A stretch of DNA of 35,692 nucleotides from the NCBI GenBank assembly GCA_023384595.1, contig JAHDVQ010000021.1, positions 1 through 35,692 on the forward strand, in the 5' to 3' direction. Position numbers and translations under genes: made by a program. This document shows, piece by piece, positions 3,493-35,024 of this stretch. The DNA comes from Vicinamibacteraceae bacterium (GTDB lineage: Bacteria > Acidobacteriota > Vicinamibacteria > Vicinamibacterales > JAFNAJ01). Position 1 is the first letter of the stretch. Each line of letters starts with the position of its first letter. Under the pieces are notes generated by a model, which saw only the letters and a list, made by a program, of their open reading frames with translations, was not told the DNA's origin and searched no databases.

Positions 3493-4059
3493 TCACCGCG
3501 CCGGGTTGAGCGCCGCGCGCAGCCACGCGCGCGCCTTCAGCCAGTCGCGTTGCACCGTCCTGAGCGACACGCCCAGCGCGTCGGCGGTCTCCTGCTCCGA
3601 GAGCCCCGTGAAATACCGGCACTCCACCACCCGCACCAGCCGCGGATCGACGGCTTCGAGCCGCCCGAGCGCGTCGTCGAGTTCGAGCAGATCGTGCGCC
3701 TCGCGCGCCACGACGCCCGGCACCTCGTCGAGCGGCACCGGCACGGCCCCCGCACCGCGCTTGGCGCGGAGCCGGCGGCGCGCGTGATCCACGAGAATCT
3801 GCCGCATCGCGACCGACGCGACGGCGAGGAAGTGCTGGCGATCGTTCCAGCCGGCCCGTTCGGCGTCCACGAGCTTCACGTAGGCTTCGTGCACGAGGGC
3901 CGTCGTGTCGAGCGTCTCGCCCACCCGCAGCCGGCGGAGCTGCGCGCGGGCAAGGCGGCGCAGGTCGGGATAGACGAGCGGCACCAGGCGATCGAACGCC
4001 TCGGCATCGCCCTGCCCCATCGCCACGAGCAGCGAGGTCAGATCCGGTGCCTCGGTCAT
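3493..4059 (-). CDS. ECF-type RNA polymerase sigma factor (TIGR02999-like)
   Basis: MTEAPDLTSLLVAMGQGDAEAFDRLVPLVYPDLRRLARAQLRR...TTALVHEAYVKLVD...RQHFLAVASVAMRQILVDHARRRLRAKRG...CRYFTGLSEQETADALGVSLRTVQRDWLKARAWLRAAL. Sigma-70 region 2 and region 4 patterns. ORF track starts at 4098; the ATG at 4059 overlapping the kinase stop is preferred. Confidence 0.9.
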   Translation of the reverse strand: MTEAPDLTSLLVAMGQGDAEAFDRLVPLVYPDLRRLARAQLRRLRVGETLDTTALVHEAYVKLVDAERAGWNDRQHFLAVASVAMRQILVDHARRRLRAKRGAGAVPVPLDEVPGVVAREAHDLLELDDALGRLEAVDPRLVRVVECRYFTGLSEQETADALGVSLRTVQRDWLKARAWLRAALNPAR

Positions 4060-7000
4060 CATCCGCCTCCGCGGTGGAACGGCCACCGTGGCATCCACGA
4101 GGAGCCTCTCGTGCCCGTGTCACCAACGGCGCCGTCGGCCCACCGCTCGATGACGACGAGATGCCGCCAACGCGCCTGCGCATCGTCGTCGCCGCCGCGC
4201 AACACGAGCAGCCGCCCGTCGCGGGCCACCGAATAGATCGGTCCCAGGCGATCGGTCATCCACGGGGCCTCGACCACCCGCTCGGGCGCCGAGGCGGGCC
4301 AGCGCCGCACGTCGCCAGGCGCCGCTCCCTGAGGGACCGGCACGCCGACAATGCCGCGCCCGTCGTAATAGAGCAGCCGGCGGCCGTCGCGGCTCCACAC
4401 CGGCGAGGTGCCCCCGCCGGTCGAGACCTGCACGCGCGCCGACTCGACATCGGGCCACGGGCGCACGTAGATCTCGAATCGCCCCGATTCGTCCGACTGG
4501 TAGGCGAGCCACCGTCCGTCGGGCGAAAGCTGCGGTCGAAGCTGTGCGCCCGGTCCGCCCGCGAGCACACGCTCGTCGAGGCTGCCGTCCATGGGGGCCA
4601 TCTTCACATCCTGCTCGCGGTAGCTGCGGAAATCGGTGAAGAGCACGAAGGCGCCGTCGGCCGTGACGTCGTAGGCGGTGTGAATCGTCCCATTGGGTCG
4701 CGTGATCTGCACCGGCGGCGAGGCTCCGTCGGCGGCCACCCGGTGCAGCCCGCCGGCCTCGCGGTCCGATCGGAAGACCAGGCTGCGCCCGTCCCTCGTC
4801 CAGATCGGCGCTGTGTCGAGCGCGGCGTCGAAGGTCACCCGGGTCGTCGTGCCCCGTTCGAGGTCGTGCACCCAGATGTCGTGCGCGTCCTCGCTGATCG
4901 AGACGGCAATGCGACGCTCGTCGGGCGAGAGGCTGAAGCGCGAGTACCGCCGGGGCTCGAGGCCGAGCGGGCGCTCGCCGCCGCCGGACGTGAGCCACGC
5001 GAAGGTACGCCCGCGACGGGCGGTGCGGCGCGGCAGGAACGCCAGCGTACCCGACTCGGAGACCGCGGCGTGCGCGACGCCCGTGATGCTCGCCAGCTGG
5101 ACCTCGTCGAGCACCGACGACTGCGGCCCCATCAGGCGGGCAGCCGTCAGGTCGAAGGCCGACGAGAACAGGCTGCCCTCGCGCACGAACAGAAGGCGTC
5201 CCTGTTCCGCTCCGCCAGCGCCGAGCCAGCCGCCGCCCGCCGTGCGCGCGAGCACGCGGGGCTGGAGGCCCGCGCCGAGCCGGCGGTGCGCCCCTCCCGT
5301 GACCGGGACGACCGCAAGGTGCCATTCGTTGCCGGCGAGCACGCTGAAGAGCACGGCGCGTCCGTCCGGCAGCACGTGGGGCAGCGCGTGCGCCTCGTCG
5401 CCGGCGGCCACGTCGAGGGTGGTGAGCGGCACGGGCTGGCCGCCGTTGGCGCTGACGCGATACAGCACGCGCCTGGCACCGGTGGCGAACACGATCTCGC
5501 CCCGCGGCGACCAGCTGGCCGACGCACCTCCGGGCGCCTCGGCGATGCGCAGCGGCGGGCCGCCGTCGAGCGAGAGCGTGAAGAGCGTGCCGTCGCGATC
5601 GAAGCCAATCGCGCGCCCGTCGGGCGAGAAGAACGGCGCCGCCGCCCCCTCCGTGCCGTCGAGCGGATGCGGCTCCTCGCGATCGAGATCCCGCAGGTGC
5701 AGCCTGATGACGCCATCGCGGCTCGCCCGATACACCAGCCGCCGCCCGTCGGGGGAGATGGCAAGTGCCGGCGCCTGACCGGTGATGAACGCATCGGCGT
5801 CGGGCAGGACGACGGCGAGCCTGGACGGACCGGGAGGCGCCGAGACCACCGGCCGCAGCCAGCCGGCCACCGCCACCGCCGCGAGCGCGGCCGCGGCGCC
5901 CATCGCGGCCCACCTCCGCCACCTCCGATGCCCAGCGCTCCGCGCCTCGGCGCCTTCGTCGGGCGCAGCCCCCTGGAGTTCGGCTTCGGCGTCGGCCAGG
6001 TCGAGCCGCGCGTCACCGATGAAGCCGAGACGCCGCTCGGGTGCCTTCTCGAGCGACCGCCTGATCAGACGGCGCAGCGCGAGGGGAACACCGGTCGGCA
6101 GCGCCGTGAAGTCGGGCGCGCGCTCGAGGACACGGGCGATGGCGTCGGTCGTGGTCTTGCCGCCAAAGGCCCGACGCCCGGTGAGCATCTCGTAAAGGAT
6201 GCAGCCAAAGCCCCAGACGTCGGTACGGTGATCGACGCGCAGGCCCCGCGCCTGCTCCGGGCTCATGTAGGGGGCCGTGCCGCGGATGACGCCCTCGATC
6301 GAGACGTCGAGCCCGGGTCCGCCCGCACCGCCGTGCAGACCCGTCAGGGCCTTGGCCAGCCCGAAGTCGAGCACCTTCACGACGTTGTCGCGACTGAACC
6401 CGACGTTGGCCGGCTTCAGATCCCGGTGAACGACCCCGCGGTAGTGCGCCGCCTCGAGCGCATCGACGATGCCGCGGGCCACGCGCAGGCACTCGGCCAC
6501 TGGCAACGGGCCGCGGGCGAGGCGGTCGGCAAGCGAGCCGCCGTCGGCCAGTTCGAGCACCAGCGCCACGCGTCGGTCGGCGTCGACGATGTCGTAGATG
6601 GCCGCGATGTTCGGATGGCTGAAGGCGCCGAGGACGCGGGCCTCGCGCTCGAGACGCTCGCGCAGTGCGCTGTCGTGCGCCATGGCGGCCGGCAGGACCT
6701 TGAGCGCGACCTCGCGTCCCAGCCGCTCGTCGAACGCGCGATAGACCTCGCCCATCCCGCCGCGCCCGAGCAGCCCGCGCACCTCGTAGGGCCCGAGCCG
6801 CGCGCCCGCCTCGAGCACCGCCGGCGCATCGCCGGCCGACGGCGCCGGCGGGGAGTCTGCCCCGAGCGCCGACGACCAGTCGGCGAAGAGCGCGCCTCCG
6901 AGTGCCCCGGCCGGCGGCAGGAACTCGTCGTCGGTCGTCGACTCGGCAAGGACGGCGAGCACCGCGTCGGCCAGCGCCTCGTCCCCGGCGGCCGCGCGGC

Positions 7001-7091
7001 GGACGAAGGCCTCCCGCTCCGGCAGCGGAACCTCGAGGGCGCGCTCGATGAGGGCGTCGGCCTCGGGCCAGCGGGTGTGGTCGAGCAACAC
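4059..7091 (-). CDS. Ser/Thr protein kinase with TM segment and C-terminal TolB/PD40-type beta-propeller
   Basis: GRGGMGEVYRAFDERLGREVALKVL, VVHRDLKPANVGFS, KVLDFGLAKAL, GTAPYMSPEQARG; TM RWAAMGAAAALAAVAVAGW; repeated SPDGR / WSRDGR propeller blades in the C-terminal half. Confidence 0.95.
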   Translation of the reverse strand: MLLDHTRWPEADALIERALEVPLPEREAFVRRAAAGDEALADAVLAVLAESTTDDEFLPPAGALGGALFADWSSALGADSPPAPSAGDAPAVLEAGARLGPYEVRGLLGRGGMGEVYRAFDERLGREVALKVLPAAMAHDSALRERLEREARVLGAFSHPNIAAIYDIVDADRRVALVLELADGGSLADRLARGPLPVAECLRVARGIVDALEAAHYRGVVHRDLKPANVGFSRDNVVKVLDFGLAKALTGLHGGAGGPGLDVSIEGVIRGTAPYMSPEQARGLRVDHRTDVWGFGCILYEMLTGRRAFGGKTTTDAIARVLERAPDFTALPTGVPLALRRLIRRSLEKAPERRLGFIGDARLDLADAEAELQGAAPDEGAEARSAGHRRWRRWAAMGAAAALAAVAVAGWLRPVVSAPPGPSRLAVVLPDADAFITGQAPALAISPDGRRLVYRASRDGVIRLHLRDLDREEPHPLDGTEGAAAPFFSPDGRAIGFDRDGTLFTLSLDGGPPLRIAEAPGGASASWSPRGEIVFATGARRVLYRVSANGGQPVPLTTLDVAAGDEAHALPHVLPDGRAVLFSVLAGNEWHLAVVPVTGGAHRRLGAGLQPRVLARTAGGGWLGAGGAEQGRLLFVREGSLFSSAFDLTAARLMGPQSSVLDEVQLASITGVAHAAVSESGTLAFLPRRTARRGRTFAWLTSGGGERPLGLEPRRYSRFSLSPDERRIAVSISEDAHDIWVHDLERGTTTRVTFDAALDTAPIWTRDGRSLVFRSDREAGGLHRVAADGASPPVQITRPNGTIHTAYDVTADGAFVLFTDFRSYREQDVKMAPMDGSLDERVLAGGPGAQLRPQLSPDGRWLAYQSDESGRFEIYVRPWPDVESARVQVSTGGGTSPVWSRDGRRLLYYDGRGIVGVPVPQGAAPGDVRRWPASAPERVVEAPWMTDRLGPIYSVARDGRLLVLRGGDDDAQARWRHLVVIERWADGAVGDTGTRGSSWMPRWPFHRGGG

Positions 7092-7248
7092 GGTCGGTTC
7101 CGGAATCGCTGCGGGCGTGCGCCGGCCCCGTGGCGGGAATGCGGCGTGCGCGACGTTAAGAGAGTGTGGCCCGATTGTCGAGGGAAAGGTTGAGCATGGT
7201 CAAGTCCGGGAACGCCGCGCGCCGCACCCAACCGGGAAGGCTGTCGGC

Positions 7249-10200
7249 ATGAGTGCCTTCTGCTACAGCTGCCTGGCGCCGATGGACGCCCTGGGCGACG
7301 CGCACTGCCCGCAGTGCGGTCTGCCCCGCCCTTCGCACGGCTGGCCGCGCGACGCGAGGCTCGGCACGCTGGTCGCCGGCGGCCAGTACCGCGTCCTCCG
7401 CCGGCTGGGCGCTGGAGGCTTCGGCGTGGTGTACCTGGTCGAAACGGTGGTCGGCGGCCTGCGCCGTGCCCTCAAGGTGCTGCACACCGAGTGGGCCTCC
7501 GATCCCGCCGCGCGCGATCGCTTCGTCAACGAGGCGCTCATCGTCGAGCAGGTGAACCACCCGAACGTCGCGCGCTGCTATGCGGCGGGCGCGCTCGACG
7601 ACGACGCGCTCTACTTGCTGATGGAGCTGGTCGAGGGCATACCGCTGACGGCGCTCGTCGAGGCCGGTCCGGCGAGGGGGCCGCTCGCGCCCGCACGCGC
7701 CGTGCGGCTGGCCAAGCAGGTGGCTTCGGGGCTGGTCGCCGCGCACGCCACGCGCGTGCTCCATCGCGATCTGACGCCACAGAACATTCTCGTCATCGAC
7801 GCCGGCACCCCGGACGAGCACGTCAAGATCGTGGACTTCGGCATTGCGCGCTCCATCGACGCCACGGCGGCGTCCACCCGCGGCATCCTCGGCACGCCCG
7901 GCTACCTGCCGCCCGAGCGGCTGCGGTCGGGCGAGGTCGTCGACGCGCGGAGCGACCTCTGGCAGCTGGGGGCGGTGCTCTTCTACCTGCTCACCGGCCG
8001 TCCCCCGCTCGCCAGCGCCGACGGGTCGCTGGCCGACGCCATGCGGCTGCACGAGCGATGGCTCGATGCGGGTCCCGCGCCCTCGTCAGTCGTGCCGGCG
8101 CTTGCGGCCTCGGCGGCGCTCGACGGGTTCGTGGCGCGGCTGCTCGCGACCCGGCGCGAGCGCCGGCCGCGATCGGCCGCGCAGGCATGCGCCCAGCTCG
8201 CCCACATCGAGTCGAGCCTCGCCCCGACCGACGCGCCCGGCGCGCTCGCCCTCATCGAGGCGCTCTGCGCGGTGCCGGGCGAAGGCGGATGGTGGGCGCT
8301 CTGCCGCTACCTCTCCGAGGCACCCGATCGCCAGTTCCTCGTCGAGGCCGCCGACGCGCTGCTCGCGTCGTGGCCCGACACGCTGCGGCTGGCGCCGACG
8401 GCCTGGTGGGAGGCGGTGCGCCGCGGCGAGGCCCACGCGCTGTGGCCGCTCGCCCGCACGCTCGACCTCTCGCGCCGGGAGCTGGCCGAAGACGACGTGC
8501 ACGATCTGGCGGAGTGCCAGGCCGTCTCGAGCCTGACGCGACTGGCGCTCGCGGGCAACGGCCTCGACGACGGCGCGGCAAAGCGCCTTGCCCCGTCACC
8601 GCACCTGCGCGGACTCGTCGCGCTCGACCTCTCGCACAACCGGCTCACGTCGGACGGTGCCGCCGCCATCGCCGCGAGCGCGCACCTGGTGAACCTGGCG
8701 GAGCTGTCGCTCGCCAATAACGGGCTCGGCGCGCGCGGGGCCGCGGCGATCGCGCAGAGCGGACTAGCGCTGCGCGTGCTCGATCTTGGCGACAACGACC
8801 TCAGGGCCGAGGGCGCGGCCGCCATCGCCGGCAGTCCCGCGCTCGGCGGCCTCGAGGTGCTCAGGCTCGCGCGCAACGGCATCGGCTCGGACGGAGCCGG
8901 CGCGCTCGCCGTCTCGCGGACGCTCACCAGCCTCGCGGAGCTCGACCTCGCCGGCAACGGCATCGGTCCGGGCGGAGCCGCGGCGCTCGCCCTCTGCCCC
9001 AACGTCTCGCGGCTCCACACGCTGCGGCTCGGCGCCAACGCGCTCGGCCGCCAGGGCATCGAGCTGCTCGTCGCCTCGAACCGCTTCACCGCCCTCGAGC
9101 GGCTCGACATCACCGGCAACCAGATCGGCGCCTCGGGCGCCATGGCACTGGCCGCCTCGCCCTTCGCGCGACGCGTGAAGACCCTCGACGTCGCCGACAA
9201 CCAGCTCGGCGACGCCGGCCTCGCCGCGCTGCTCGGCGCCACGCCCTTCGCCGGGTTGCGCGCGCTCGGCCTGGCGCGCAACGAGCTGACCGCGGGCGGA
9301 ATGACGCTGGTTGCTGGCGCGCCGCCCGAACTCGAGTCGCTGGATCTCGCCGGCAACGACATCGGCACGGCGGGCGCCGGCGCCCTCGCGCAAGCGCTCG
9401 AGCGGTCGCGCGTGGCGACGCTCGATCTGAGTCACTGCGGCCTCGACGGCCGGAGCCTGGCCGCCGTTCTCGGCGGCGGCCGTATCACGACGCTCAAGGC
9501 GGCGCGCAACCCGCTGGACGCCGCCGGGGTCGACGCGGTCGCCTCGTCGGACGGGGCACGCGCGCTCGAGTGCCTGGAACTGGGCGGGGCGCCGTTCGGA
9601 CTCGGGGGCATCGAGGCCCTCGCGCGGGGACGTCTCCCGCAGCTGCGCCGCCTGCGACTCGAAGCGGTGGGCCTGGAGGACGCGGACGCGGAGGCGGCGT
9701 TGAAGGCCCTCGGAGTCCTCCCGTCGCTGCAGTGGCTGGCGCTTCCCGCCAACGACCTCGGCGCGGCGACCGCCGCCGCCATCGCCGCGTCGCCGATGGC
9801 GGCGAGGCTCGCGGTGCTCGATCTCTCACACAACCGCATCGGCGATGCCGGCGCGTCTGCGCTCGCGCGCGGCGCGCACTGGCACATGCTCCACACGCTG
9901 GTCCTCGACGACAACGGCCTCGGCGCGGCCGGGGCGGCGACCATCGTCGCCTCATCGGCGCTGGCGTTGCTGGCGCGCGTCGATCTCGCGCACAACGCGC
10001 AGGAAGGGTCCGTCGATCTTCACAGCCTCGGCCGCCACCGGGTGGCGCTGCTCGAGGCTTCGTTCGGGCGCGTGGCCGCGCTCGGCACCGACTTCGCCGA
10101 AACGGTGTACCGAAAGCTGTTCGAGCGTCATCCCGGCGTCAAGCCGCTCTTTGCCCGCGTGCCCATGAAGCTGCAGTCGCAGCACCTGATGCAGACCCTC

Positions 10201-10485
10201 GTGATGGTCATCGACCGGCTCCGACAGCCGGACGTCGTCGCCGAGCAGCTGCGGCAGTTGAGCCTCCGCCACGTCGGCTACGGCGTGTTCCCGTCGCAGT
10301 ACTTCGCCTTGAACGGCATCATCCTCGAGGCGCTGAGGGAGGCGCTCGGCGAGGACTGGAACGACGAGGTGGACGATGCGTGGCGCGAGGGGCTCGAGGC
10401 GCTGACGCGCGTGATGCTCGAGGCGCACAGGACAGCCACGTCGATGGCGGCACCTGCGCCACGCGCCGTGACGCCGACCGTCTGA
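7249..10485 (+). CDS. Multidomain protein: zinc-ribbon + Ser/Thr protein kinase + leucine-rich repeats (RNI type) + C-terminal single-domain globin
   Basis: CYSC-X12-CPQCG ribbon; GAGGFGVVYLVE, ALKVL, VLHRDLTPQNILV, KIVDFGIARS; more than a dozen ~28-aa LRRs (LxLxxNxLGxxGAxALA); C-terminus FAETVYRKLFERHPGVKPLFARVPMKLQSQHLMQTL...LRHVGYGVFPSQYFALNGIILEALREALGEDWNDEVDDAWREGLEAL aligns with the bacterial haemoglobin/Hmp globin fold. ORF track starts at 7048; the MSAFCYSC start at 7249 is preferred. Confidence 0.88.
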   Translation: MSAFCYSCLAPMDALGDAHCPQCGLPRPSHGWPRDARLGTLVAGGQYRVLRRLGAGGFGVVYLVETVVGGLRRALKVLHTEWASDPAARDRFVNEALIVEQVNHPNVARCYAAGALDDDALYLLMELVEGIPLTALVEAGPARGPLAPARAVRLAKQVASGLVAAHATRVLHRDLTPQNILVIDAGTPDEHVKIVDFGIARSIDATAASTRGILGTPGYLPPERLRSGEVVDARSDLWQLGAVLFYLLTGRPPLASADGSLADAMRLHERWLDAGPAPSSVVPALAASAALDGFVARLLATRRERRPRSAAQACAQLAHIESSLAPTDAPGALALIEALCAVPGEGGWWALCRYLSEAPDRQFLVEAADALLASWPDTLRLAPTAWWEAVRRGEAHALWPLARTLDLSRRELAEDDVHDLAECQAVSSLTRLALAGNGLDDGAAKRLAPSPHLRGLVALDLSHNRLTSDGAAAIAASAHLVNLAELSLANNGLGARGAAAIAQSGLALRVLDLGDNDLRAEGAAAIAGSPALGGLEVLRLARNGIGSDGAGALAVSRTLTSLAELDLAGNGIGPGGAAALALCPNVSRLHTLRLGANALGRQGIELLVASNRFTALERLDITGNQIGASGAMALAASPFARRVKTLDVADNQLGDAGLAALLGATPFAGLRALGLARNELTAGGMTLVAGAPPELESLDLAGNDIGTAGAGALAQALERSRVATLDLSHCGLDGRSLAAVLGGGRITTLKAARNPLDAAGVDAVASSDGARALECLELGGAPFGLGGIEALARGRLPQLRRLRLEAVGLEDADAEAALKALGVLPSLQWLALPANDLGAATAAAIAASPMAARLAVLDLSHNRIGDAGASALARGAHWHMLHTLVLDDNGLGAAGAATIVASSALALLARVDLAHNAQEGSVDLHSLGRHRVALLEASFGRVAALGTDFAETVYRKLFERHPGVKPLFARVPMKLQSQHLMQTLVMVIDRLRQPDVVAEQLRQLSLRHVGYGVFPSQYFALNGIILEALREALGEDWNDEVDDAWREGLEALTRVMLEAHRTATSMAAPAPRAVTPTV

Positions 10486-10534: not shown

Positions 10535-12096
<1,562 letters not shown>

Positions 12097-12115
<19 letters not shown>

Positions 12116-12256: not shown

Positions 12257-12922
12257 ATGACCACCGCTGCCATGACACTTGCCGACCTCGCCACCAGCCA
12301 TTCGGGCGCCTCGCGGGTGTTCATCCGCCACGGCCTCGACTACTGCTGCGGCGGCCGCCGTCCCCTGTGGGACATCTGCCGCGAACGCGGCCTCGACGCC
12401 GACGCCCTCATCGAGGAAATCCGGCGCGAAGACGAGGTCGCGGGCCCGTCTGCGGGCTGGGATCGGCAGCCGCTCCCGGCCATCGTCGACCACATCGTCG
12501 GCTACTACCACGCCAGGCTGCGTGAGGAGATGCCGCAGCTGGTGGCGATGGCCGCCCGCGTCGAGGAGCGGCACGCCGAGAAGCCGCTCGTGCCGGCGGG
12601 CCTGGCCGCGGAGCTCACCGCCATGCACGAGGGCGTGGTCGATCACCTCGCGAAGGAGGAGCAGATCCTCTTTCCGATGATCCTCGCCGGTCACGGCACG
12701 CGCGCCGGCGGGCCCATCAACGTCATGGAACTCGAGCACGACGAGCACCGCGTGCATCTCGAGCGCGTCAAGGCGCTCACCGGCAACATGGAGCCGCCCG
12801 AGTATGCGTGCACGACGTGGCGCGCGCTCTACCTGCGGCTGACGGCCCTCGAGGCCGACCTGATGGATCACATTCATCTCGAGAATCACATTCTCTTCCC
12901 CCGCGCGCTCCAGGGCGCGTGA
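12257..12922 (+). CDS. ytfE: Repair of iron centres di-iron protein (RIC; YtfE/ScdA/DnrN family)
   Basis: N-terminal ScdA-N motif HSGASRVFIRHGLDYCCGGRRPLWDICRERGLD; hemerythrin-like His/Glu pattern (DHIVGYYHARLREEMPQL, HEGVVDHLAKEEQILFPMI, ELEHDEHRVHLERV, DLMDHIHLENHILFPRAL). Confidence 0.93.
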   Translation: MTTAAMTLADLATSHSGASRVFIRHGLDYCCGGRRPLWDICRERGLDADALIEEIRREDEVAGPSAGWDRQPLPAIVDHIVGYYHARLREEMPQLVAMAARVEERHAEKPLVPAGLAAELTAMHEGVVDHLAKEEQILFPMILAGHGTRAGGPINVMELEHDEHRVHLERVKALTGNMEPPEYACTTWRALYLRLTALEADLMDHIHLENHILFPRALQGA

Positions 12923-12934
12923 AAAGGCGCAGTC

Positions 12935-15241
12935 ATGTCCTCCGATTCCGGCACGTCCCATCGCGGCCTGTGGGTGCTCTTCTGCGGAGCCCTGCTGGTG
13001 GCCTTCTTCATCCTCGGGTTCTTCGGACGCGACGTCTACCGTCAGGCGCCTCCCATTCCCGGCCAGGTCGTCACGACCGACGGCGATCTGCTGCTGACGC
13101 GCGACGACATCCTCACCGGCCAGCAGGTCTGGCAATCGACCGGCGGGCAGCAGCTCGGCTCCATCTGGGGCCACGGAGCCTATCAGGCCCCGGACTGGTC
13201 GGCCGACTGGCTGCATCGCGAGTCGGAAGCGCTGCTCGGGCTCTGGGCCGAGCGCGAGTACGGCCGTCCGTTCGCCGCGCTCGACGCGACGGCGCGCGGC
13301 GGTCTGCAGGCGCGACTCACCGAGGAACTCCGCACGAACACGTACGACGCGGCCACCGACACGGTCACCGTGTCGCCTGATCGCGCCGAGGCCATGCGCC
13401 GCACCGCCGCGCATTACGACGCGCTCTTTGGCGGAGCCCCGGCCCTCGCCGGTCTGCGCGACGACTATGCGATGGCGCGGGTGACCGTCCCTGACGCGGC
13501 CCGGCGCGAGCGGCTCACCGACTTCTTCTTCTGGACCAGCTGGGCGTCGGCCACCAACCGGCCGGGCCGCACGGTGACCTACACGAACAACTGGCCGCAT
13601 GAGCCGCTCATCGGCAACACGCCGACGGCGGCCAACGTGTTGTGGTCGCTCATCAGCGTGCTGATGCTGCTGGCGGGCATCGGCGCGTTCGTCTGGTGGC
13701 ACTCGTTCCGCTCGGCCCCCGAACCCGAAGTCGAGGCCCCCGGCACCGATCCGCTCGCCGGCATCCAGCTGACGCCGTCGATGCGCGCCGTCGCCAAGTA
13801 CCTCGGGGTGATCGTGGCCCTCTTCGTCGTCCAGGTGCTGCTCGGCGCGGTCACGGCGCACTACACGGTCGAGGGCCAGTCGTTCTTCGGGTTCCCGCTC
13901 GCCGACTATCTCCCCTACAGCCTCACGCGCACGTGGCACATCCAGACGGCGATGTTCTGGATCGCGACGGCGTTTCTCGCCGCGGGCCTCTTCCTTGCCC
14001 CGGCCGTGGGCGGCGCCGAGCCGCGCTTCCAGCGGCTGGGGGTGAACGTCCTCTTCGGCGCGCTGCTCGTGGTGGTCGCCGGATCGCTCGCCGGCGAGTG
14101 GATGGCCATCCACCAGAAGCTGCCGCTCGAGTGGAGCTTCCTCCTCGGTCACCAGGGCTACGAGTACGTCGATCTCGGCCGCGTGTGGCAGATTGCGCTC
14201 TTCGTCGGCCTCCTCCTCTGGCTGGCGCTCATGCTGCGCGCGCTCGCGCCGGCGCTGCGGCGCCGTGACGCGGCCCGTTCGCTCGTGCTGATGTTCACCG
14301 CGGCCACGACGGCCGTGGGCCTGATGTACGGCGCGGGCTTCTTCTTCAGCGCCCGCACGCACCTCACCGTCATGGAGTACTGGCGGTGGTGGGTCGTGCA
14401 CCTCTGGGTCGAGGGCTTCTTCGAGGTCTTCGCCACGGCGGCCATCGCGCTCATCTTCGCGAGCCTCGGCCTCGTGCAGAAGCGGCACGCCGGCGCCGCG
14501 GTCATCGCGTCGAGCGCGCTCTTCCTCTTTGCCGGCATCCCCGGCACCTTTCATCACCTCTATTTCAGCGGCACGCCCACCTCGATCATGGCCATTGGCG
14601 CCAGCTTCTCGGCGCTCGAGGTCATCCCGCTCGTCGTCATCGGCTTCGAGGCCTACCAGACGAGCCGCCTGCAGCGGGTGACGGCCTGGATGCGCAAGTA
14701 CCGGTGGCCGGTCATCTTCTTCGTCGGCGTGGCCTTCTGGAACCTCGTCGGCGCCGGGCTCTTCGGCTTCCTCATCAACCCGCCGATCGCGCTCTATTAC
14801 ATGCAGGGGCTCAACACCACGCCGGTGCACGCCCACACCGCGCTCTTCGGGGTCTACGGGCTGCTCTCGCTCGGCCTCGTCCTCGTCATCGCGCGCGTCC
14901 TCACCGGGCACCGCGTGTGGAACGAGAAGTGGCTGGGCATCTCGTTCTGGGCCATGAATCTGGGCCTCGGTCTCATGGTCGGGCTCAGCCTCCTCCCCAT
15001 CGGCCTCGCCCAGGCCTGGGCGAGCATCACGCACGGCCTGTGGTTCGCGCGCAGCGCCGAGTTCCTCCAGCAGCCGTGGATCGAAGCGCTCCGCTGGCTG
15101 CGCATCGTCGGCGACACGATCTTCCTCGTCGGCGTCGGCAGCTTCGCCTGGTTCCTGGCCGGCCTCTGGCGCGGGTGGAGCTACGAGCGGGTGGCAGCTC
15201 CCGAGCCCGTGCGCGGCGCCGCGGCGTCGCACGCGGCGTAG
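12935..15241 (+). CDS. norB: Quinol-dependent nitric oxide reductase (qNOR, NorB/NorZ)
   Basis: N-terminal cytochrome c-like extension without CXXCH (TGQQVWQSTGGQQLGSIWGHGAYQAPDWSADWLHRE), then haem-copper NOR core: HLWVEGFFEVFATAAIALI, GIPGTFHHLYFSGTP, VHAHTALFGVYG. Confidence 0.95.
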   Translation: MSSDSGTSHRGLWVLFCGALLVAFFILGFFGRDVYRQAPPIPGQVVTTDGDLLLTRDDILTGQQVWQSTGGQQLGSIWGHGAYQAPDWSADWLHRESEALLGLWAEREYGRPFAALDATARGGLQARLTEELRTNTYDAATDTVTVSPDRAEAMRRTAAHYDALFGGAPALAGLRDDYAMARVTVPDAARRERLTDFFFWTSWASATNRPGRTVTYTNNWPHEPLIGNTPTAANVLWSLISVLMLLAGIGAFVWWHSFRSAPEPEVEAPGTDPLAGIQLTPSMRAVAKYLGVIVALFVVQVLLGAVTAHYTVEGQSFFGFPLADYLPYSLTRTWHIQTAMFWIATAFLAAGLFLAPAVGGAEPRFQRLGVNVLFGALLVVVAGSLAGEWMAIHQKLPLEWSFLLGHQGYEYVDLGRVWQIALFVGLLLWLALMLRALAPALRRRDAARSLVLMFTAATTAVGLMYGAGFFFSARTHLTVMEYWRWWVVHLWVEGFFEVFATAAIALIFASLGLVQKRHAGAAVIASSALFLFAGIPGTFHHLYFSGTPTSIMAIGASFSALEVIPLVVIGFEAYQTSRLQRVTAWMRKYRWPVIFFVGVAFWNLVGAGLFGFLINPPIALYYMQGLNTTPVHAHTALFGVYGLLSLGLVLVIARVLTGHRVWNEKWLGISFWAMNLGLGLMVGLSLLPIGLAQAWASITHGLWFARSAEFLQQPWIEALRWLRIVGDTIFLVGVGSFAWFLAGLWRGWSYERVAAPEPVRGAAASHAA

Positions 15242-18610: not shown

Positions 18611-19126
18611 ATGCCCGAGCGCCCGACCAGAACCGCATTCCGATCCCGCTCGCTGACGCTCGCCGTGACGGCCGGCGCCTGCCTCCTGGCGTTCGGCGCC
18701 AGTGCCAGCGCGCAGGCCCCGCCCTATGGTCAGAACGTCACGCTCGAACAGGCCCGCGTCGCCGCCGCGGCCGCCGAGGCCGAGGCGAAGAAGAACAACT
18801 GGAACGTCGCGATCGCCGTCGTCGACACCGGGGGGCACCTGGTGCACTTCACGCGGCTCGACCAGACACAGCTGGGCAGCAGCGACATCGCGACGCGGAA
18901 GGCATGGACAGCCGTCGCGTTCAAGCGGCCGACGAAGAGCTTCGAAGACACGGTGGCAGGTGGTGGAGTGGGCCTGCGCGTGCTGGGCATCGAGCCTGTC
19001 CTGCCCATCGAGGGCGGACTGCCGCTCACCATCGACGGAAAGATCGTCGGCGCCATCGGCGTGTCGGGCGTGCAGCCGGCCCAGGACGGCCAGGTCGCCA
19101 AGGCGGGTGCCGACGCGCTGCACTAG
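18611..19126 (+). CDS. Secreted GlcG/HbpS family (haem-binding-like) protein
   Basis: Signal peptide ending ASASAQA; VTLEQARVAAAAAEAEAKKNNWNVAIAVVDTGGHLVHFTRLDQTQLGSSDIATRKAWTAVAFKRPT ... GGLPLTIDGKIVGAIGVSGV is the GlcG/HbpS pattern. Confidence 0.9.
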   Translation: MPERPTRTAFRSRSLTLAVTAGACLLAFGASASAQAPPYGQNVTLEQARVAAAAAEAEAKKNNWNVAIAVVDTGGHLVHFTRLDQTQLGSSDIATRKAWTAVAFKRPTKSFEDTVAGGGVGLRVLGIEPVLPIEGGLPLTIDGKIVGAIGVSGVQPAQDGQVAKAGADALH

Positions 19127-26484: not shown

Positions 26485-27801
26485 TCAGCGACTCACGCCG
26501 CGCGCCGGATACCCCGGGGCGGCGCCAGGTGCCGCGGCGTACTTCAGCACCCAGGCCATCGACAGAGAGACCAGCGCGAGGAAGATGAAGACGATGAAGC
26601 CGATCGGATAGCCCTTCTCGCCGAGATCGCGTACGGCGAAGGCCATCACGGGCGGCACGACGAACCCGCCGAACGCGCCGAGGCCGCCCACCCACCCCGT
26701 GGCGCCCCCGACGGCCTGGGGCACGGCCTGCGGCACGATCTTGAAGACCGCGGCATTGGCGATGCCCATCCCGAAGGCGAGGAGGAACTGCCCGGGCACC
26801 GCCAGTTCGAACTGCTGCGCGTTGACCATCACCAGCGCGCCCGCGAGCATGATCAGGAGCGCGAGAATCGCGGTGTTCTCGCCACCCTCGCGCAGGTGAT
26901 CGGCCATGATGCCGCCCACGATCCGCACGATGGAGGTCGTGAGCGAGTAGGCGGCCGTCAGCGCCCCCGCCGTCACGAGCGACACGCCGAAGTAGCTGTG
27001 CCAGTACGTCGGTAGCCACGCCGTGAGGCCGATGAAGCCGCCGAAGGTCGTGAAGTAGATGAGCACGAGCGCCCACGTCCGCCACGAGCGCGCGGAGATG
27101 GCGAGGCTCTCGCGGAGCGTGCCGGCCGGGAACAGCTCCTGCCCGGCGGCACGCGCGGCCTCGCGCGCCTCCGCCTCGGCCATCCCGCCGCCGCGCAACT
27201 GGAAGTACCACGCGTCGCGTCCCGTCATCGCGTAGAGCACGGTGCCGACGGCGAGCAGCAGCAGCCACGCGACGTAGGATCCGGCCAGTCCCCACACCGT
27301 GAGGGCGAACGGCAGCACGAACGAGAAGAGGCCGGGCGCGAGGTTGCCCACGCCGGCGAAGATGGCCAGCGCACGCCCCTGCCTCGCCTGGGGGAACCAG
27401 TACGAGACCTGGGCGGCGCCGACCGAGAACGAGGCGATGGCGCTGCCGCTCAGCAGGGCGAGCAGGAGCAGCAGCGGATAGAGCGAGGCCGTGAGCCGGG
27501 CGGGGTAGAGGAAGGAGACGACGGCGGTGATGCCGGCCATCCCGGCGAGCGAGAGGCCGAGCAGCAGCAGCATTGGCGTCCGCCCACCGCGCGTGTCCAC
27601 CCATGCGGCGCAAGGAATGCGCAGGAGGGAGCCCGACAGGGCTGGCATGGCGACGAGAAAGCCCACGGCCATGGGGCTCAGGTGCATGACGTCCTGGAAG
27701 CGGGCCGCGGTGGGCCCGAAGAGCGCCACGGCCGCGAACCCGAAGAAGAAGCCGAGCGTGGCGCCCCAGAGGGCCTGGCGAGGGGTGCCCTGCGCCTTCA
27801 C
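26485..27801 (-). CDS. narK: MFS nitrate/nitrite transporter (NarK family)
   Basis: LWGATLGFFFGFAAVALFGPTAARFQDVMHLSPMAVGFLVAMPALSGSLLRIPCAAWVDTRGGRTPM ... GVGNLAPGLFSFVLPFAL ... GWVGGLGAFGGFVVPPVMAF. GTG start at 27801 overlaps the narI stop; the ORF-track upstream extension is spurious. Confidence 0.92.
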   Translation of the reverse strand: MKAQGTPRQALWGATLGFFFGFAAVALFGPTAARFQDVMHLSPMAVGFLVAMPALSGSLLRIPCAAWVDTRGGRTPMLLLLGLSLAGMAGITAVVSFLYPARLTASLYPLLLLLALLSGSAIASFSVGAAQVSYWFPQARQGRALAIFAGVGNLAPGLFSFVLPFALTVWGLAGSYVAWLLLLAVGTVLYAMTGRDAWYFQLRGGGMAEAEAREAARAAGQELFPAGTLRESLAISARSWRTWALVLIYFTTFGGFIGLTAWLPTYWHSYFGVSLVTAGALTAAYSLTTSIVRIVGGIMADHLREGGENTAILALLIMLAGALVMVNAQQFELAVPGQFLLAFGMGIANAAVFKIVPQAVPQAVGGATGWVGGLGAFGGFVVPPVMAFAVRDLGEKGYPIGFIVFIFLALVSLSMAWVLKYAAAPGAAPGYPARGVSR

Positions 27802-28493
27802 GACACGACTCCCGGGCCGCGGTACCACCGCACCACCTGCGGCTTCCTCCACAGGTAGGGCAGCGGCGCCACCAGCACGTGCACGAGACGGGAGAACGGC
27901 GTGTAGCCGACGAGCACGAACGCCGTGACGATGTGCGTCTTCACGAGCCATGGCATGGCCGCCATGGCGGTGAGGTCGGGCCGCAGGAAGACGAGCGACC
28001 ACAGGTAGGGGGCGGCCGTCGCGGCAAACCAGGAGGAGCCCCACGGGTAGAGCATGGCGACGAGCACGCCCGTCACGGTCTGCACGCCCAGCATCGCGAA
28101 GAGCACCCAGTCGCGCGTGTTGGTGACGCGCCGCACGCGGCCCACGGTGATGCGCCGCCACACCGCGGCGGCCAGGCCGATGACGGTCAGCACGCCGAAG
28201 GCGAGCGCCGAGACCTCCAGGACGTAGAGCCTGAGGGGCTGCGCGTTCCACGCGAGCACGCTGCGCGGGATGAGGAACGCGACGAGGTGTCCCGTCAGCA
28301 CGACCAGGATGCCGTAGTGGAACGGCACGAGCCCCCAGAAGTGCTGCCGGTTCTCGAGGAACTGCGACGAGAGGCTCGAGTAGCTGTAGCGCCAGCCCCG
28401 GTAGCGCGCGATCGACCCGAGCAGGAAGACGGCGAGCGCCACGTAGGGCAGGACCCCGAAGAGCAGCGCATCGAGCGAGAGCACGCTGGTCAT
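27798..28493 (-). CDS. narI: Respiratory nitrate reductase gamma subunit (cytochrome b)
   Basis: FLENRQHFWGLVPFHYGILVVLTGHLVAFLIP and WLVKTHIVTAFVLVGYTPFSRLVHVLVAPLPYLWRKPQVVRW; all four haem-ligand His of E. coli NarI appear conserved by eye. Confidence 0.95.
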   Translation of the reverse strand: MTSVLSLDALLFGVLPYVALAVFLLGSIARYRGWRYSYSSLSSQFLENRQHFWGLVPFHYGILVVLTGHLVAFLIPRSVLAWNAQPLRLYVLEVSALAFGVLTVIGLAAAVWRRITVGRVRRVTNTRDWVLFAMLGVQTVTGVLVAMLYPWGSSWFAATAAPYLWSLVFLRPDLTAMAAMPWLVKTHIVTAFVLVGYTPFSRLVHVLVAPLPYLWRKPQVVRWYRGPGVVS

Positions 28494-29011
28494 GACACTC
28501 TCTCTTCCACCGGGCCGGTGCCGGGAAGCGCCGCCCGTGCGGCGAGCACCAGGCCGGCAAAGGGACTCGCGGCGGGCAGGGCGGCCGCGATCCTGTCGAG
28601 CGCCGGCGCGAGCACGCGCGCCGCGAACGCCGCCGCGTCGGCGGAGGGCATCGCTCCGACGAGCGGCAGCACGTGGAGGAGGTGATCGGGCAGCTCGCCC
28701 GTCTCGGCGATGCCGGCCTCGCGCAGTTGCCCCCTGAGATCCACCAGGAACGCCCCGCGCTCGTACTGCTCGCCGAACAGGTGCCAGCCGACCTCGAGCG
28801 TCGCCGCGGGGTTGAGGTCGAACGCCTGGACGAAGGCTTCCTGGAGCGACGTGACCGGCAGGGCCGCGACCGCCGCGGCGAACGCCGCCAGACCCTCGTC
28901 GCCCGTTCGCGTGGCCGCCTCGTGGGCGCGCGCGGCGTAGGCCTCGTCGGGGTACGCAAACAGCGGCGCCAGGGCGTCGAGGGCGCCGGCGTGATCGATC
29001 ACCGCGCTCAC
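28490..29011 (-). CDS. narJ: Nitrate reductase molybdenum cofactor assembly chaperone
   Basis: LAPLFAYPDEAY...LPVTSLQEAFVQAFDLNPAATLEVGWHLFGEQYERGAFLVDLRGQLREAGI...ELPDHLLHVLPLV; position between narH and narI. Confidence 0.94.
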   Translation of the reverse strand: MSAVIDHAGALDALAPLFAYPDEAYAARAHEAATRTGDEGLAAFAAAVAALPVTSLQEAFVQAFDLNPAATLEVGWHLFGEQYERGAFLVDLRGQLREAGIAETGELPDHLLHVLPLVGAMPSADAAAFAARVLAPALDRIAAALPAASPFAGLVLAARAALPGTGPVEERVS

Positions 29012-29012
29012 G

Positions 29013-30503
29013 TCACACCCCCCGTCGTGGCGCCTTGATGAACCCGAAGCCGGCGGCCTGCTTGTGCTCCATCGGCTCCTCGAGCATCTGCAGGGCTTCT
29101 TCGCGGTGCATCGGCGGAATCACGAAGCGTTCCTCGAACGTGCACAGCGACGTCAGCCGGTAGATGGCTTCGGCCTCCTCCGCGGTGCAGTCGGCCTCGC
29201 GCAGCATGCGATCGGCCGTGGCGCGGTCGACGTCGCCGACCGTCTCGGCGCGCCGGTGCCAGCGCACCGCCTTCTGCTTGCGCAGGGCGTAGCGCACCTT
29301 CGCGTCGTGGCCGGCGCCGAAGAGGTTCCCGAGGAACTGCAGCGGCACGCGCGCCGCCTCGATGTCGTGGAAGAGGTCGTCGCTCACGCTGTCGACCACG
29401 CCCTGCCCCCGGTTGGCCATCACGGGCGCCATCGGCGGCACGTAGAAGAGCATCGGCATCGTCCGGTACTCGATGTGCGGCGGGAGCGCGACCTTCCACA
29501 CCTTGACGAACTGGTAGACGGGCGATCGCTGCGCCGACTCGATGACCGAGTCGTGCACGCCGTTGGCCGCCGCCGCGGCGATGACCTGCGGGTCGAACGG
29601 GTCGAGGATGAGCGAGCGCTGCGCCTCGACGAGCTCGTCGTCGGGCCTCGAGGCGGCCTCTTCGAGCCGGTCGGCGTCGTAGAGCAGCACGCCGAGATAG
29701 CGGATGCGTCCCACGCACGAGTGGAAGCACGCCGGCGCCTGCCCGGTCTCGAGCCGCGGGAAGCAGAGGATGCACTTCTCGGACTTCCCCGTGCTCCAGT
29801 TGAAGTAGACCTTCTTGTAGGGACAGGCCGCGATGCAGGCGCGCCACGCGCGGCACCGCGTCTGGTCGACGAGCACGATGCCGTCCTCGCCGCGCTTGTA
29901 GAGCGCCCCCGACGGGCACGCCGCCACGCACGCCGGGTTCAGGCAGTGGTTGCAGATGCGCGGGAAGTAGAAGAAGACCAGCCGCTCGACGGCGAACAGC
30001 TGCTGGCGCTGCTCCTCGGAGAGCCCCTCGAGGTTCCGGTCGTGCTCCGCGTAGACCGGCGACCCGCCCAGGTCATCGTCCCAGTTGGGCCCCGACTCGA
30101 TGGCCACCGGCTCGCCCGTCACCATCGAGATCGGCCGCGCGATGGGCTGATCCGAGCCCTCGGGCGCGTCGAACAGGTTCTTGTAGTCGTAGGTCCAGGG
30201 GTGGTAGTAGTCGTCGAGCGTCGGCAGGTTCGGGTGGTGGAACATGTTGACGACGCTCTTGGTCCGGCTCTGCGAGCGGAGCGCGAGCGTGCCGTCCTCG
30301 ACCTTCCAGCCGCCGTTGTACTTCTCCTGGTCCTCCCAGGCCGTCGGGAAGCCCGTGCCGGGCTTGGTCTCGACGTTGTTCCACCACATGTACTCGGTGC
30401 CCTTGCGATCGGTCCAGATGTTCTTGCACGCGATGCTGCAGGTGTGGCATCCGATGCACTTGTCGAGGTGGAACACCATCGACACTTGCGAGCGCACGTT
30501 CAT
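29013..30503 (-). CDS. narH: Respiratory nitrate reductase beta subunit (Fe-S)
   Basis: DKCIGCHTCSIACKNIWTDRKGTEYMWWNNVETKPGTGFPTAWEDQEKYNGGW; CNHCLNPACVAACPSGALYKR; CRAWRACIAACPYKKVYFNWSTGKSEKCILCFPRLETGQAPACFHSCVGRIRYLGVLLYD. Confidence 0.97.
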   Translation of the reverse strand: MNVRSQVSMVFHLDKCIGCHTCSIACKNIWTDRKGTEYMWWNNVETKPGTGFPTAWEDQEKYNGGWKVEDGTLALRSQSRTKSVVNMFHHPNLPTLDDYYHPWTYDYKNLFDAPEGSDQPIARPISMVTGEPVAIESGPNWDDDLGGSPVYAEHDRNLEGLSEEQRQQLFAVERLVFFYFPRICNHCLNPACVAACPSGALYKRGEDGIVLVDQTRCRAWRACIAACPYKKVYFNWSTGKSEKCILCFPRLETGQAPACFHSCVGRIRYLGVLLYDADRLEEAASRPDDELVEAQRSLILDPFDPQVIAAAAANGVHDSVIESAQRSPVYQFVKVWKVALPPHIEYRTMPMLFYVPPMAPVMANRGQGVVDSVSDDLFHDIEAARVPLQFLGNLFGAGHDAKVRYALRKQKAVRWHRRAETVGDVDRATADRMLREADCTAEEAEAIYRLTSLCTFEERFVIPPMHREEALQMLEEPMEHKQAAGFGFIKAPRRGV

Positions 30504-30516
30504 GGCGTCGGCCTCC

Positions 30517-33500
30517 TCACCACACGAGCGCCGGCAGCTTGCGCACGAGCACGTGCGTGTCGCGGTTGGCGCCGGTCGGGCCCCAGTAGTTGAAGTGGAA
30601 GGTGAACTGGCCGTAGCCGCCCACCATCAGGTTCGGCTTGAGGCGGGTGCGCGTCAGGCTGTTGTGGCCGCCCGCCCGCCGGTGTCCCCGCAGCGGCGAC
30701 TTCGGCACGCCGAGGGTCCGCTCGGGCGAGTGGTACTGGATGCAGACGCCCCGCGGGATGCGCGCGCTCACGACGGCGCGCGTCACGACCACGCCGTGAT
30801 CGTTGTGCACCTCGACCCAGTCGTTGTCGTCGATGCCGATCTCCGCCGCGTCCTTGTCGCTCAGCCAGAGCGGCTCGATGCCGCGCGAGAGCGTCATCAT
30901 CCGGTTCGTGTCGCCGTAGGTCGAGTGGATGTGCCACTTGCCGTGCGGCGTCAGGTAGTTGAGGGTGAGCGTCGGCCCCTCTTCGCGGCTCACGCGCAGG
31001 TCGGCGTAGTCCTTCGGCTGCGGCTTGGGCTTGTAGGTCGGCAGGTGCTCGCCGAAGTCGATGTAACCCTCGTGATCCAGGTAGAAGTGCTGCCGTCCCG
31101 TGAGCGTCCGCCATGGCACCAGGCACTCGACGTTGTAGGTGAACGGCGAGTACGGCCGGCCCTCGTCGACGAGCCCCGACCACATCGGGCTGTTCACGAA
31201 GCGGAAGGGCCGCGTCTGGATGCCCTTGTAGTCGGTGCGCACGCTCCGCGACTTCTCGGCCAGGTGCGCCAGCGGCAGGCCCACGCGCTCCTCCATGCGC
31301 CGGTACGACCGGTACGCCAGCTCGCCGTTGGTGACCGAGGCGAACTGCAGGATCGCGTTGCACACGTGCTCGTCGTCGTGGAGCGAGGGGTAGGCCTGGC
31401 CGTCCCACTGCTGGCGCGGACCCACCCGGACGGCCTCGTCGTAGACGTCCTCGACGCCGTAGCGGGTGCCGTGCGCCCCGAGCCCGCCCGACCGGACGAG
31501 CGGCCCGAACGAGATGAACTGCCGGTAGATGTTCCGGTAGTCGCGCGTGACGACCTTCAGCGCGGGCATCGTCTTGCCCGGCACGGGCTCGACCTCGCCC
31601 GCGAACCAGTCGCGCAGGACGGGTTGCGCGATCTCGGCCTCGGTGTCGTGCTGCAGGGGCACCGCGACCATGTCCTTCACCGGCTCGGGAAAGTGGCGCG
31701 GCGCCAGTTCCGAGAGCTTGCGCGCGATCGCCCGGAAGATCTGCCAGTCGCTCTTCGACTCCCACGACGGCGGCACCGCCGCCGACAGCGGGTGGATGAA
31801 GCTGTGGAGGTCGGTCGAGTTCAGATCGGCCTTCTCGTAGAAGGTCGCCGCCGGCAGGACGATGTCGGAGTAGAGCGCCGACGTGTCCATCCGGAAGTTC
31901 AGATCGACGACGAGGTCCATCTTCCCGGAGGGCGCGTGCTCGTGCCACGCGATCTCGCGCACCGAGTCGCCCGCCACCTCGTCGGCCAGCTTGTTGGTGT
32001 GCGTGCCGAGGTAGTGGTGCAGGAAGTACTCGTGGCCCTTGGCGCTCGACATGAGCGCGTTCCCGCGCCAGATGAACCAGACCCGCGGCCAGTTCTCCTC
32101 GGCATCCGGATCCGCAACCGCAAACCCCAACGACCGTGAGCGCAGCGCCTCGACGGTGTGCGACACGATCTCCTCGGGCGTCGCGGCGCCGGCGGCCTCC
32201 GCCTCGGCGACGACGTCGAGCGGGTTGCGGCTGAACTGCGGATAGAACGGCAGCCAGCCGTTGCGCACCGCCTTCACCTGGATGTCGGCCGTGTGGCCCT
32301 TTGCGAGCGAGGGCCGGCCGTTCGACGGCGGCACCGTGTGGTAGTCGGTGAAATCGCGCTCGTAGCGCCACTGGTCGGTGTGGATGTAGTGCCAGCTCGG
32401 CGCGTTCTGCAGCCGCGCGGCCGGATGCCAGTCGCGTCCGAAGGCAATCGCCGACCAGGGCTCGGCGGGCGCGAGCTTCTCCTGCCCGACGTAGTGCGCC
32501 AGCCCCCCGCCGTTGACCCCCACGCAGCCGCAGAACATGAGGGCGTTCATCGCCGCGCGGTACATCAGGTTGTTGTGGTACCAGTGGTTGATGCCGGCGC
32601 CGATGATGATCGTGCACTTCCCGTTGGTGAGCCGCGCCGTCTCGCCCCACTCGCGCGCGAAGCGGATGAGCGTGTCGCGCCCGAGGCCCGTGTAGCGCTC
32701 GGACCACGCCGGCGTGTACGGCCGCGTCTCGTCGTCGTAGCTCGCGGGGTAGTCGCCGGCAAGGCCGCGGCCGACGCCGTACTGCGCCATCATCAGGTCG
32801 TAGACGGTGGCGACCGTCGCCGTGCGGCCGCCGGCGAGCGCCACGCGCCGCACGGGCACGTGGCGCGTGAGCGTTCGGCCCTCGCCGAAGTCGTCGAAGG
32901 CGACGGCAACGTCACCGTCGCCGCCGACCGGCCCGCCCTCGAGAAAGGTCAGGGCCGGATCGATCGCCTCGCCCGTGAGCCCGTCCTCGAGCTTCAGGTT
33001 CCACTTGCCCTTCTCCTGGCTCCACCGGAAGCCCACGCTGCCCACCGGCATCTTCGGCCGCCCGTCGGTGGCGTCCCACATCAAGAACTGCCAGTCGCCG
33101 TGCTCGACGCCGCCGTAGGCCTCGAGGCGGTTGGCCCGGAGCAGACGGCCGGGACGCCACGCGCCGCCCTCCTCGACCAGCTCCACGAGGAGCGGGGCGT
33201 CCGTGTAGCGCTTGGCGTAGTCGAGGAAGTAGGGCACCTGCTGCTCGTGGTGCATCTCGGTGAGCAGCACGTGGTTCACGGCCATCCACCAGGCACCGTC
33301 CTGCCCGGCGTTGATCGACATCCACTCGTCGGCGTACTTCGCGACCTGGTTGAAGTCCGGAGCGAAGACCCACATCTTCGTCCCGTTGTGGCGCGCCTCG
33401 GCCGCGAAGTGGCAGTCGGGCGTGCGGGTCATGTTCAGGTTCGACCCCATCACCGCGAGCAGCTTCGCGTTGTACCAGTCCGCCGACTCCTGCACGTCGG

Positions 33501-34173
33501 TCTGTTCGCCCCACAGTTCGGGCGAGGCCGGCGGCAGGTCGCAGTACCAGTCGTAGAACGAGAGCGACACGCCGCCAATCAGCTGCAGATAGCGCGCGCC
33601 CGACGCGTAGCTGATCATCGACATCGCCGGGATGGGCGAGAAGCCGGCAATGCGGTCGGGCCCGTACTTCCGAATCGTGTACAGGTTCGAGGCCGCGATG
33701 ATCTCGAGCGCCGTCTCCCAGTCGAACCGCCGGAACCCGCCCTTGCCGCGCGCCACCTGCCAGCGCTGGCGCTTCTCGGGCGACTCGACGAGCGACGCCC
33801 ACGCCTCGACCGGATCGTCGTGTTCGCCGCGCGCCGCCTTCCACAGGTCGAGCAACGCACCGCGCACGTATGGATAGCGCACGCGGATCGGGCTGTAGAG
33901 ATACCAGGAATACGAGATGCCCCGCTGGCAGCCGCGCGGCTCGTACGGGGGAATGCCGTCCTGCAGCGGCGGGTAGTCGAGCCCCTGCATCTCCCACGTG
34001 ACGATGCCGTCCTTCACGTAGATCTGCCAGGTGCACCCGCCCGTGCAGTTCACCCCGTGCGTGCTGCGCACGACCTTGTCGTGCTGCCAGCGGTTCCGGT
34101 AGAACTCCTCCCAGCCGCGGAGCGAGGCCTTGTCCTCGTCGCGAATCCAGCGAATCGTCTGCTTCGGCATCAT
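30517..34173 (-). CDS. narG: Respiratory nitrate reductase alpha subunit (Mo-bisMGD)
   Basis: [41 protein letters not shown]...[56 protein letters not shown] (Mo-ligand Asp region). No Tat motif seen. Confidence 0.97.
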
Positions 34174-35024
34174 GACCTCGCGAGGCGGCTACGCTCGACG
34201 AGCGCCCGCCGCACGCTCACCAGCCGCGAACGCCACGCGGCATCCATCGTCACCAGCCCGACGACCGTCGCGCCGAGCCCGAGCAGCACGAACGTGAGGA
34301 GTCCGGTCTTCGGGTCCTCGCCGCCCTGCGTGGCGGCGTGCTCGAAATACGCCACGAGCGGCTGCAGCTCCGCGTCGGTGAGCGCACGCCCGGCGAAGAG
34401 CGACTGCATGGTGGGCGTGGGCGGGGCGTTCAACCACGTCGCCAGCCCCTTCCTGCCCTGGAGCCGCTCGTAGACCTTCGTCAGATCGGGCGCGAGGTGG
34501 CCGCCGCCAAGGCCGCCCACGCCGCGCACGGCGTGGCACGACAGGCAGGCGGGCGCGCCGTTCACCAGGCGCTCGTCGCCGCGGAAGAGCGCGCGGCCTC
34601 GCTCGACGTCGGCCGCCGTGAACGGGCGTGTCGGCACCGCGACGCCGGCAAACTGCGACTTCGGCAGCGCCGATTCCGCCGCGATGAGATCGAGGAGCGC
34701 CTCGGCGAGCTGAGGGGTCATCCCGGCGACGTCCGGCATGACGACGCCCCGGGCCTCCTGCAGGAGCTGCTGCGCGTAGGGATCGCCGCTGTCGAGGACC
34801 CGGCGCGGCGAGACGATGAAGTGCGCGAGCCACGCGCGGTCCTTGCGGGCGGCCACGCCCTTCAGGTCGGGCCCCGTCAGGCGGCCGCCGCCAATCGTGT
34901 GGCAACTCGCGCAGTTCTGACGGAAGAAGGCCGCGGTGTCCTGCGCCGAGGCCTCGGAGAGCGGCCCGGGGAGAACGCCGAGCAGCAGGGCCAGCGGAAC
35001 GAGTCGGCGGACGATGAGGCGCAT
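34170..35024 (-). CDS. Diheme cytochrome c with C-terminal TM anchor, NarC-like by position
   Basis: Signal peptide, CASCH and CLSCH motifs, C-terminal hydrophobic helix [19 protein letters not shown]; first structural gene before narGHJIK, as narC is in Thermus. Confidence 0.88.

Follow-up and report, generated by a model that had tools for sequence, protein, structure and literature searches.

What does a globin do at the end of a bacterial protein kinase? The question is raised by a single ORF of 1078 aa, without internal stop, in the window, by which we mean the whole 35,692-nucleotide stretch of Vicinamibacteraceae DNA analysed here. The first-pass annotation had read this ORF as a zinc ribbon, a Hanks-type kinase, an array of RNI-type leucine-rich repeats (LRRs) and a C-terminal globin, and all four parts were recovered, as follows.

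7249..10485, + strand: zinc ribbon-kinase-LRR-globin fusion protein, 1078 aa (ORF, Pfam, orthologue alignment)
7261..7317, + strand: CxxC...CxxC zinc-ribbon-like segment, residues 5-23 (Cys 5, 8, 20 and 23 invariant in three orthologues)
7387..8190, + strand: Hanks-type kinase domain, residues 47-314 (Pkinase, PF00069, E 3e-42)
8461..9999, + strand: RNI-type LRR array, residues ~405-917 (LRR_6, PF13516, E 3.5e-41; repeats judged by eye)
10024..10443, + strand: predicted F-family 3/3 globin domain, residues 926-1065 (Pfam, PDB phmmer, alignment, AlphaFold2, Foldseek)

The Pkinase, LRR_6 and Globin matches (the last at residues 953-1054, E 1.9e-12) all exceeded the Pfam gathering scores. As claimed earlier, the kinase domain keeps the glycine loop (at 54), the VAIK-type lysine (Lys76), HRD (at 172) and DFG (at 196), and by domain and motifs the protein is a predicted Hanks-type Ser/Thr kinase; in its variant HRDLTPQN motif, threonine replaces the usual lysine after HRDL, and one orthologue has HRDLKPEN. 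Pfam and NCBIfam scans of the fusion found no FAD/NAD reductase domain, in agreement with the earlier view that the protein is not an Hmp enzyme, and NF009805 scored 49.7 bits against a cut-off of 432. With no such C-terminal reductase, the protein falls outside the flavohaemoglobins. An AlphaFold2 model of the full-length fusion from its single sequence was uninformative (pLDDT 44).

The C-terminal domain was assigned to the 3/3 globins of the F family, with both HisF8 and PheCD1. In a phmmer comparison with the PDB, residues 926-1065 matched HGbRL (3wfw, E 4e-18) and Hell's Gate globin I (3s1i, E 2e-11), and an AlphaFold2 model of the domain, built with one relative's sequence, had a mean pLDDT of 91.8 and 3s1i as its best Foldseek match (TM 0.82/0.87, rmsd 1.7 Å). 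The model and the Pfam match thus bear out the globin fold suspected at the C-terminus. The haem-pocket residues TyrB10 (Tyr954), PheCD1 (Phe968), GlnE7 (Gln976) and HisF8 (His1008) are retained in all three orthologues. Tyr954 and His1008 had been assigned in the same way by the first-pass annotation, whereas GlnE7 had been placed at Gln978; we assign it to Gln976, because Leu980 sits at E11 and the family alignment gives the same register. Gln976 is invariant in the three orthologues, and position 978 is Gln, Gln and His. The alignment to E. coli Hmp, described earlier as gap-free from TyrB10 to GlnE7, also needs correction: against Hmp-type globins there is a two-residue difference in the CD region. 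Since the pocket residues are present, the globin likely binds haem, and a sensor role for the kinase-LRR-globin protein is likewise judged likely. The domain is not of the globin-coupled sensor (S family) type, being C-terminal and having its best matches in the F family.

Searches of 193 genomes of the class Vicinamibacteria, with the globin domain as query and then with a 19-row profile, found the full-length architecture in only three: this genome, G146 (protein P0003) and G137 (P0004). The latter two represent two genera of another family in the same order, and their proteins are 54% (P0003) and 53% (P0004) identical to the fusion over the whole length, without internal stops. Beyond the class, a contig scan gave one alphaproteobacterial single-domain globin, and among the globins and flavohaemoglobins found in a plasmid search, none was evidently fused to a kinase by its feature name. 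Two long ORFs with an N-terminal globin and a repeat-rich extension (L072:7445-11275 and L073:5573-7378) were left aside, being unlikely signalling fusions.

Comparison of the three loci (the window, L028 and L029) identified a conserved trio in which genes for an ECF sigma factor and a receptor-type kinase stand head-to-head with the fusion gene in all three genomes. In the window these neighbours and the intervening element are as follows.

3493..4062, - strand: ECF sigma factor, 189 aa, with Thr54 in the sigma2.2 motif DTTALVHE (PF07638, E 8e-54; motif alignment)
4059..7091, - strand: receptor-type Ser/Thr kinase with PD40 beta-propeller, 1010 aa (PF00069, E 1e-47; PF07676, E 8e-24)
7129..7156, + strand: candidate ECF-type promoter element, CGTGGCGGG-N16-CGT (common to the three orthologous intergenic regions)

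The receptor kinase has a single hydrophobic segment (residues 394-412, by hydropathy); its gene overlaps the ECF gene by 4 bp and diverges from the fusion gene, which starts 157 bp away. Across the three loci the ECF is ~64% and the receptor kinase 45-47% identical. At L029, where Pfam confirmed the ECF, its gene precedes that of the kinase, and an extra ORF (~7647-8378, +) may stand before the fusion gene. The earlier reading of the gene context had correctly noted adjacent nor genes and had missed this trio, which, rather than the nor cluster, is what all three loci have in common. The element CGTGGCGGG-N16-CGT lies on the fusion-gene strand in all three intergenic regions; it was found after the fact and its bare pattern is common genome-wide, and in a shuffle control none of 3000 sets had such a three-way element and two of 3000 shared any 9-mer. 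This shared ECF-like element is suggestive of the ECF also driving the fusion gene. As a genome-wide regulon finder the pattern was rejected (~79 matches, nine spacings in genome G000, no excess at N16).

The ECF offers a candidate phosphosite. In ECF43 systems, a sigma2.2 threonine of the sigma factor, T51 in EcfK, is phosphorylated by a Hanks kinase, PknT in the case of EcfP and PknS in that of EcfK; the residue lies within a QTTA-type motif that takes the place of the acidic DxxD (PMC13147305). Compared with the ECF43 QTTA, the window motif DTTALVHE has the threonine (Thr54) and has lost the second Asp, but retains the first; the ECF43-type adjacency of the gene to that of a Hanks kinase is also found, in the 4-bp overlap. 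A threonine occupies the third place of the xxTA motif in all 16 aligned ECFs from globin loci, although such a motif may be common to kinase-linked sigma factors of PF07638 at large and not specific to globin loci. Nor is the sigma2.2 Thr site always decisive: in Xanthomonas citri, the T51A variant of EcfK retains function (PMC13147305).

On the strength of the ECF43 kinase precedent and the threonine in 16/16 globin-locus ECFs, together with the domain matches, the globin fold, the conserved trio, the shared intergenic element and the recurrence of globins beside ECF-kinase cassettes described below, we propose a cytosolic, haem-globin-controlled Hanks kinase that feeds a phospho-activated ECF sigma factor, a reading that we consider about equally likely to be right or wrong. 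The C-terminal F-family globin would bind haem, as its pocket residues suggest, and the O2, NO or redox state of the globin would alter kinase activity, with the LRR array serving as a scaffold or relay. The fusion kinase would act in the same pathway as the receptor kinase and ECF encoded head-to-head with it, and one or both kinases would phosphorylate the ECF at Thr54, by similarity to the PknT-EcfP and PknS-EcfK pairs; phospho-Thr54 would then supply the negative charge needed for RNA polymerase binding. The signal would pass from globin ligand or redox state to the fusion kinase, from there to the ECF, directly or together with the receptor kinase, and on to target promoters, which may include that of the fusion gene itself. 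Gene adjacency by itself does not fix this direction of signalling.

The association between globins and ECF-kinase cassettes extends beyond the fusion. Counting one per locus or genus, with expectations taken from ECF densities, a PF07638 gene was close to 9 of the 14 globin loci in the class (0.53 expected, P 1e-10) and to 11 of 23 in the class and phylum sample together (1.13 expected, P 1.6e-9); these P values are indicative only, as the maps were classified by hand, the distance limit was set post hoc and the genera are partly dependent. A second fusion type, kinase-2Fe2S ferredoxin-cyclase-like-globin, occurs in genomes G015, G016 and G017 and twice in G519, where the cyclase domain of one copy is below the cut. 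A tree of 45 globins placed the two fusion types in clades of their own, each supported (97/91 and 100/99) and distinct from FHP/VHb, and this separation suggests that they had separate origins. That haem globins are a general input to Hanks-kinase/ECF-sigma signalling in Acidobacteriota, recruited several times as neighbour genes, in kinase-LRR-globin and in kinase-ferredoxin-cyclase-globin proteins, is a tentative generalization to which we give somewhat less than an even chance.

Several further arrangements were recorded among the globin loci. The second fusion type (L030:6608-8932, L031:6713-9031, L032:6771-9089, L070:7395-10130 and L071:6896-9268) spans two acidobacterial lineages, and its adenylate-cyclase-like domain is a weak Pfam match that may be degenerate. 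Two different globins flank one ECF-kinase cassette in three genera (L033:2327-5103, L034:801-5124 and L035:4890-7579), the globin on the ECF side having Leu in the E7 column. The second globin gene of this genome (L038:9049-10107, contig C304), just upstream of another ECF-kinase pair, has Arg instead of Gln in that column. Judged by eye, the globins of family f26 adjoin an apparent Rrf2/NsrR-type regulator (L083, L084, L085 and L086, globin near 5990-7360), and a single-domain globin is divergent to an apparent [NiFe]-hydrogenase operon at L081:6521-6937 and L082:6360-6779.

Other readings of the locus were weighed against the proposed pathway. The globin could be mainly an O2/redox sensor whose kinase acts on substrates other than the ECF, with the trio kept together through co-regulation. 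The receptor kinase, overlapping the ECF gene, is the obvious partner for the sigma factor, and Hanks kinases usually have several targets (PMC13147305), so that the ECF may answer only to the receptor kinase and the globin kinase may have another substrate. We nevertheless regard this as unlikely: globins lie beside ECF-kinase cassettes far above expectation also without the fusion kinase, and because the enrichment holds where that kinase is absent, a link of globins to the cassette itself is favoured.

The second reading concerns nitric oxide, the hypothesis of the first-pass annotation, and rests on the genes that follow the fusion gene.

10535..12115, - strand: norR (context; linkage partial; NF003451, 656.8 bits, cut-off 476)
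12257..12922, + strand: ric/ScdA-type di-iron protein (context; PF01814, PF04405)
12935..15241, + strand: norB, quinol-type nitric oxide reductase (context; PF22085, PF00115)

According to this reading, the fusion kinase senses NO specifically and tunes the adjacent nor cluster, and the ECF and receptor kinase are separate chance neighbours. The norR-ric-norB cluster begins 50 bp beyond the end of the fusion gene, norB itself being 2.5 kb away; in G137 the distance to norB is 7.3 kb, with ric and norR beyond it, a placement expected by chance in ~0.3% of cases (an estimate for one norB in 5 Mb). The proximity that had inspired the hypothesis stands in two genomes, but norB was not found in the fusion-bearing G146 (a genome 87% complete), and the same-family genomes G001 and G003 have norR-ric-norB without the kinase-globin. 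Synteny with nor thus holds at only two of the three loci, compared with all three for the ECF and receptor kinase, and NorR already serves the nor genes as a dedicated NO regulator. The globin may have NO as a ligand; an NO-specific kinase dedicated to the nor genes seems to us doubtful. Elsewhere, the window holds an HbpS-like protein of the haem-degrading type (18611-19126, +; PF03928, E 8e-38), a nitrate-reductase-type cluster (26485-34173, -) with a NarH-like beta subunit assigned by Pfam (29013-30503) and the others by size and order, and an Rrf2 regulator near the window end (35024-35476, -).

It is also conceivable, if very unlikely, that the globin does not sense at all and instead serves, free of haem, in structure or dimerisation, or scavenges NO/O2 as a module attached to a kinase scaffold. 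Haem-free globin folds exist in stress signalling, RsbR being a non-haem globin, and haem binding by the fusion globin is a prediction from its pocket residues; against this, TyrB10, PheCD1, GlnE7 and HisF8 are kept in the three orthologues, and the protein has no reductase domain to sustain NO dioxygenation. Finally, an assembly error or frameshift joining separate genes, which the fragmented assembly (500 contigs) might have invited and the first-pass annotation had raised, can be practically dismissed because full-length orthologues, 53-54% identical and uninterrupted by stops, occur in two other genomes.

Among known proteins, Hell's Gate globin I (3s1i) is the closest solved globin by structure and HGbRL (3wfw), a globin fused to Roadblock/LC7, the closest by sequence; unlike the window protein, neither is fused to a kinase. 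Flavohaemoglobins (FHP, 1cqx; Hmp) also carry an F-family 3/3 globin, whereas the fusion has no FAD/NAD reductase and lies outside the clade of FHP and VHb. HRI, the eukaryotic haem-regulated eIF2alpha kinase, is another Ser/Thr kinase under haem control and, to our knowledge, has no LRR. The globin-like assignment of its N-terminus has been questioned (PMC1457004). An Allomyces macrogynus protein of 1129 aa has, as here, a globin behind a stretch of ribonuclease-inhibitor-like and LRR repeats, but it is fungal, its globin belongs to the T family and no kinase was reported (PMC3287990).

The closest parallels in signalling are the globin-coupled sensors and the ECF43 systems. Globin-coupled sensors such as AfGcHK and the globin-coupled diguanylate cyclases likewise join a haem-globin-type domain to a signalling enzyme; their globins are of the S family and generally N-terminal, with variable C-terminal outputs that include diguanylate cyclase, chemotaxis, histidine kinase and STAS domains (PMC1457004, PMC3287990), and autophosphorylation of AfGcHK rises upon O2 binding (PMC8697598). 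In the window protein, by contrast, the globin is F-family-like, C-terminal and part of one chain with an LRR array and a kinase of the Hanks type, so that the fusion departs from both defining points of a globin-coupled sensor and yet may work like one. In the EcfP-PknT and EcfK-PknS systems, the ECF likewise adjoins a receptor Hanks kinase and has a sigma2.2 threonine, as in EcfK T51 (PMC13147305), the window ECF being likened to them by motif and kinase adjacency; no globin input is described there, and a second, cytosolic kinase is added here. Searches of the open-access literature turned up no description of a bacterial Hanks kinase that carries a globin.

The conservation of the kinase-globin in three genera, beside an ECF and a second kinase, suggests a so far undescribed pathway for sensing gas or redox state, as judged from gene content and domain architecture. 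For most bacterial Hanks kinases and kinase-linked ECF sigma factors, the input signal is not known. Here, a covalently attached globin would be a kinase input testable with defined ligands, and the linked ECF, with its predicted phosphosite, is a candidate substrate, which would make the route from gas to promoter open to study with three purified proteins. If this is true, Ser/Thr phosphorylation of a sigma factor would join the known outputs of haem-globin sensors.
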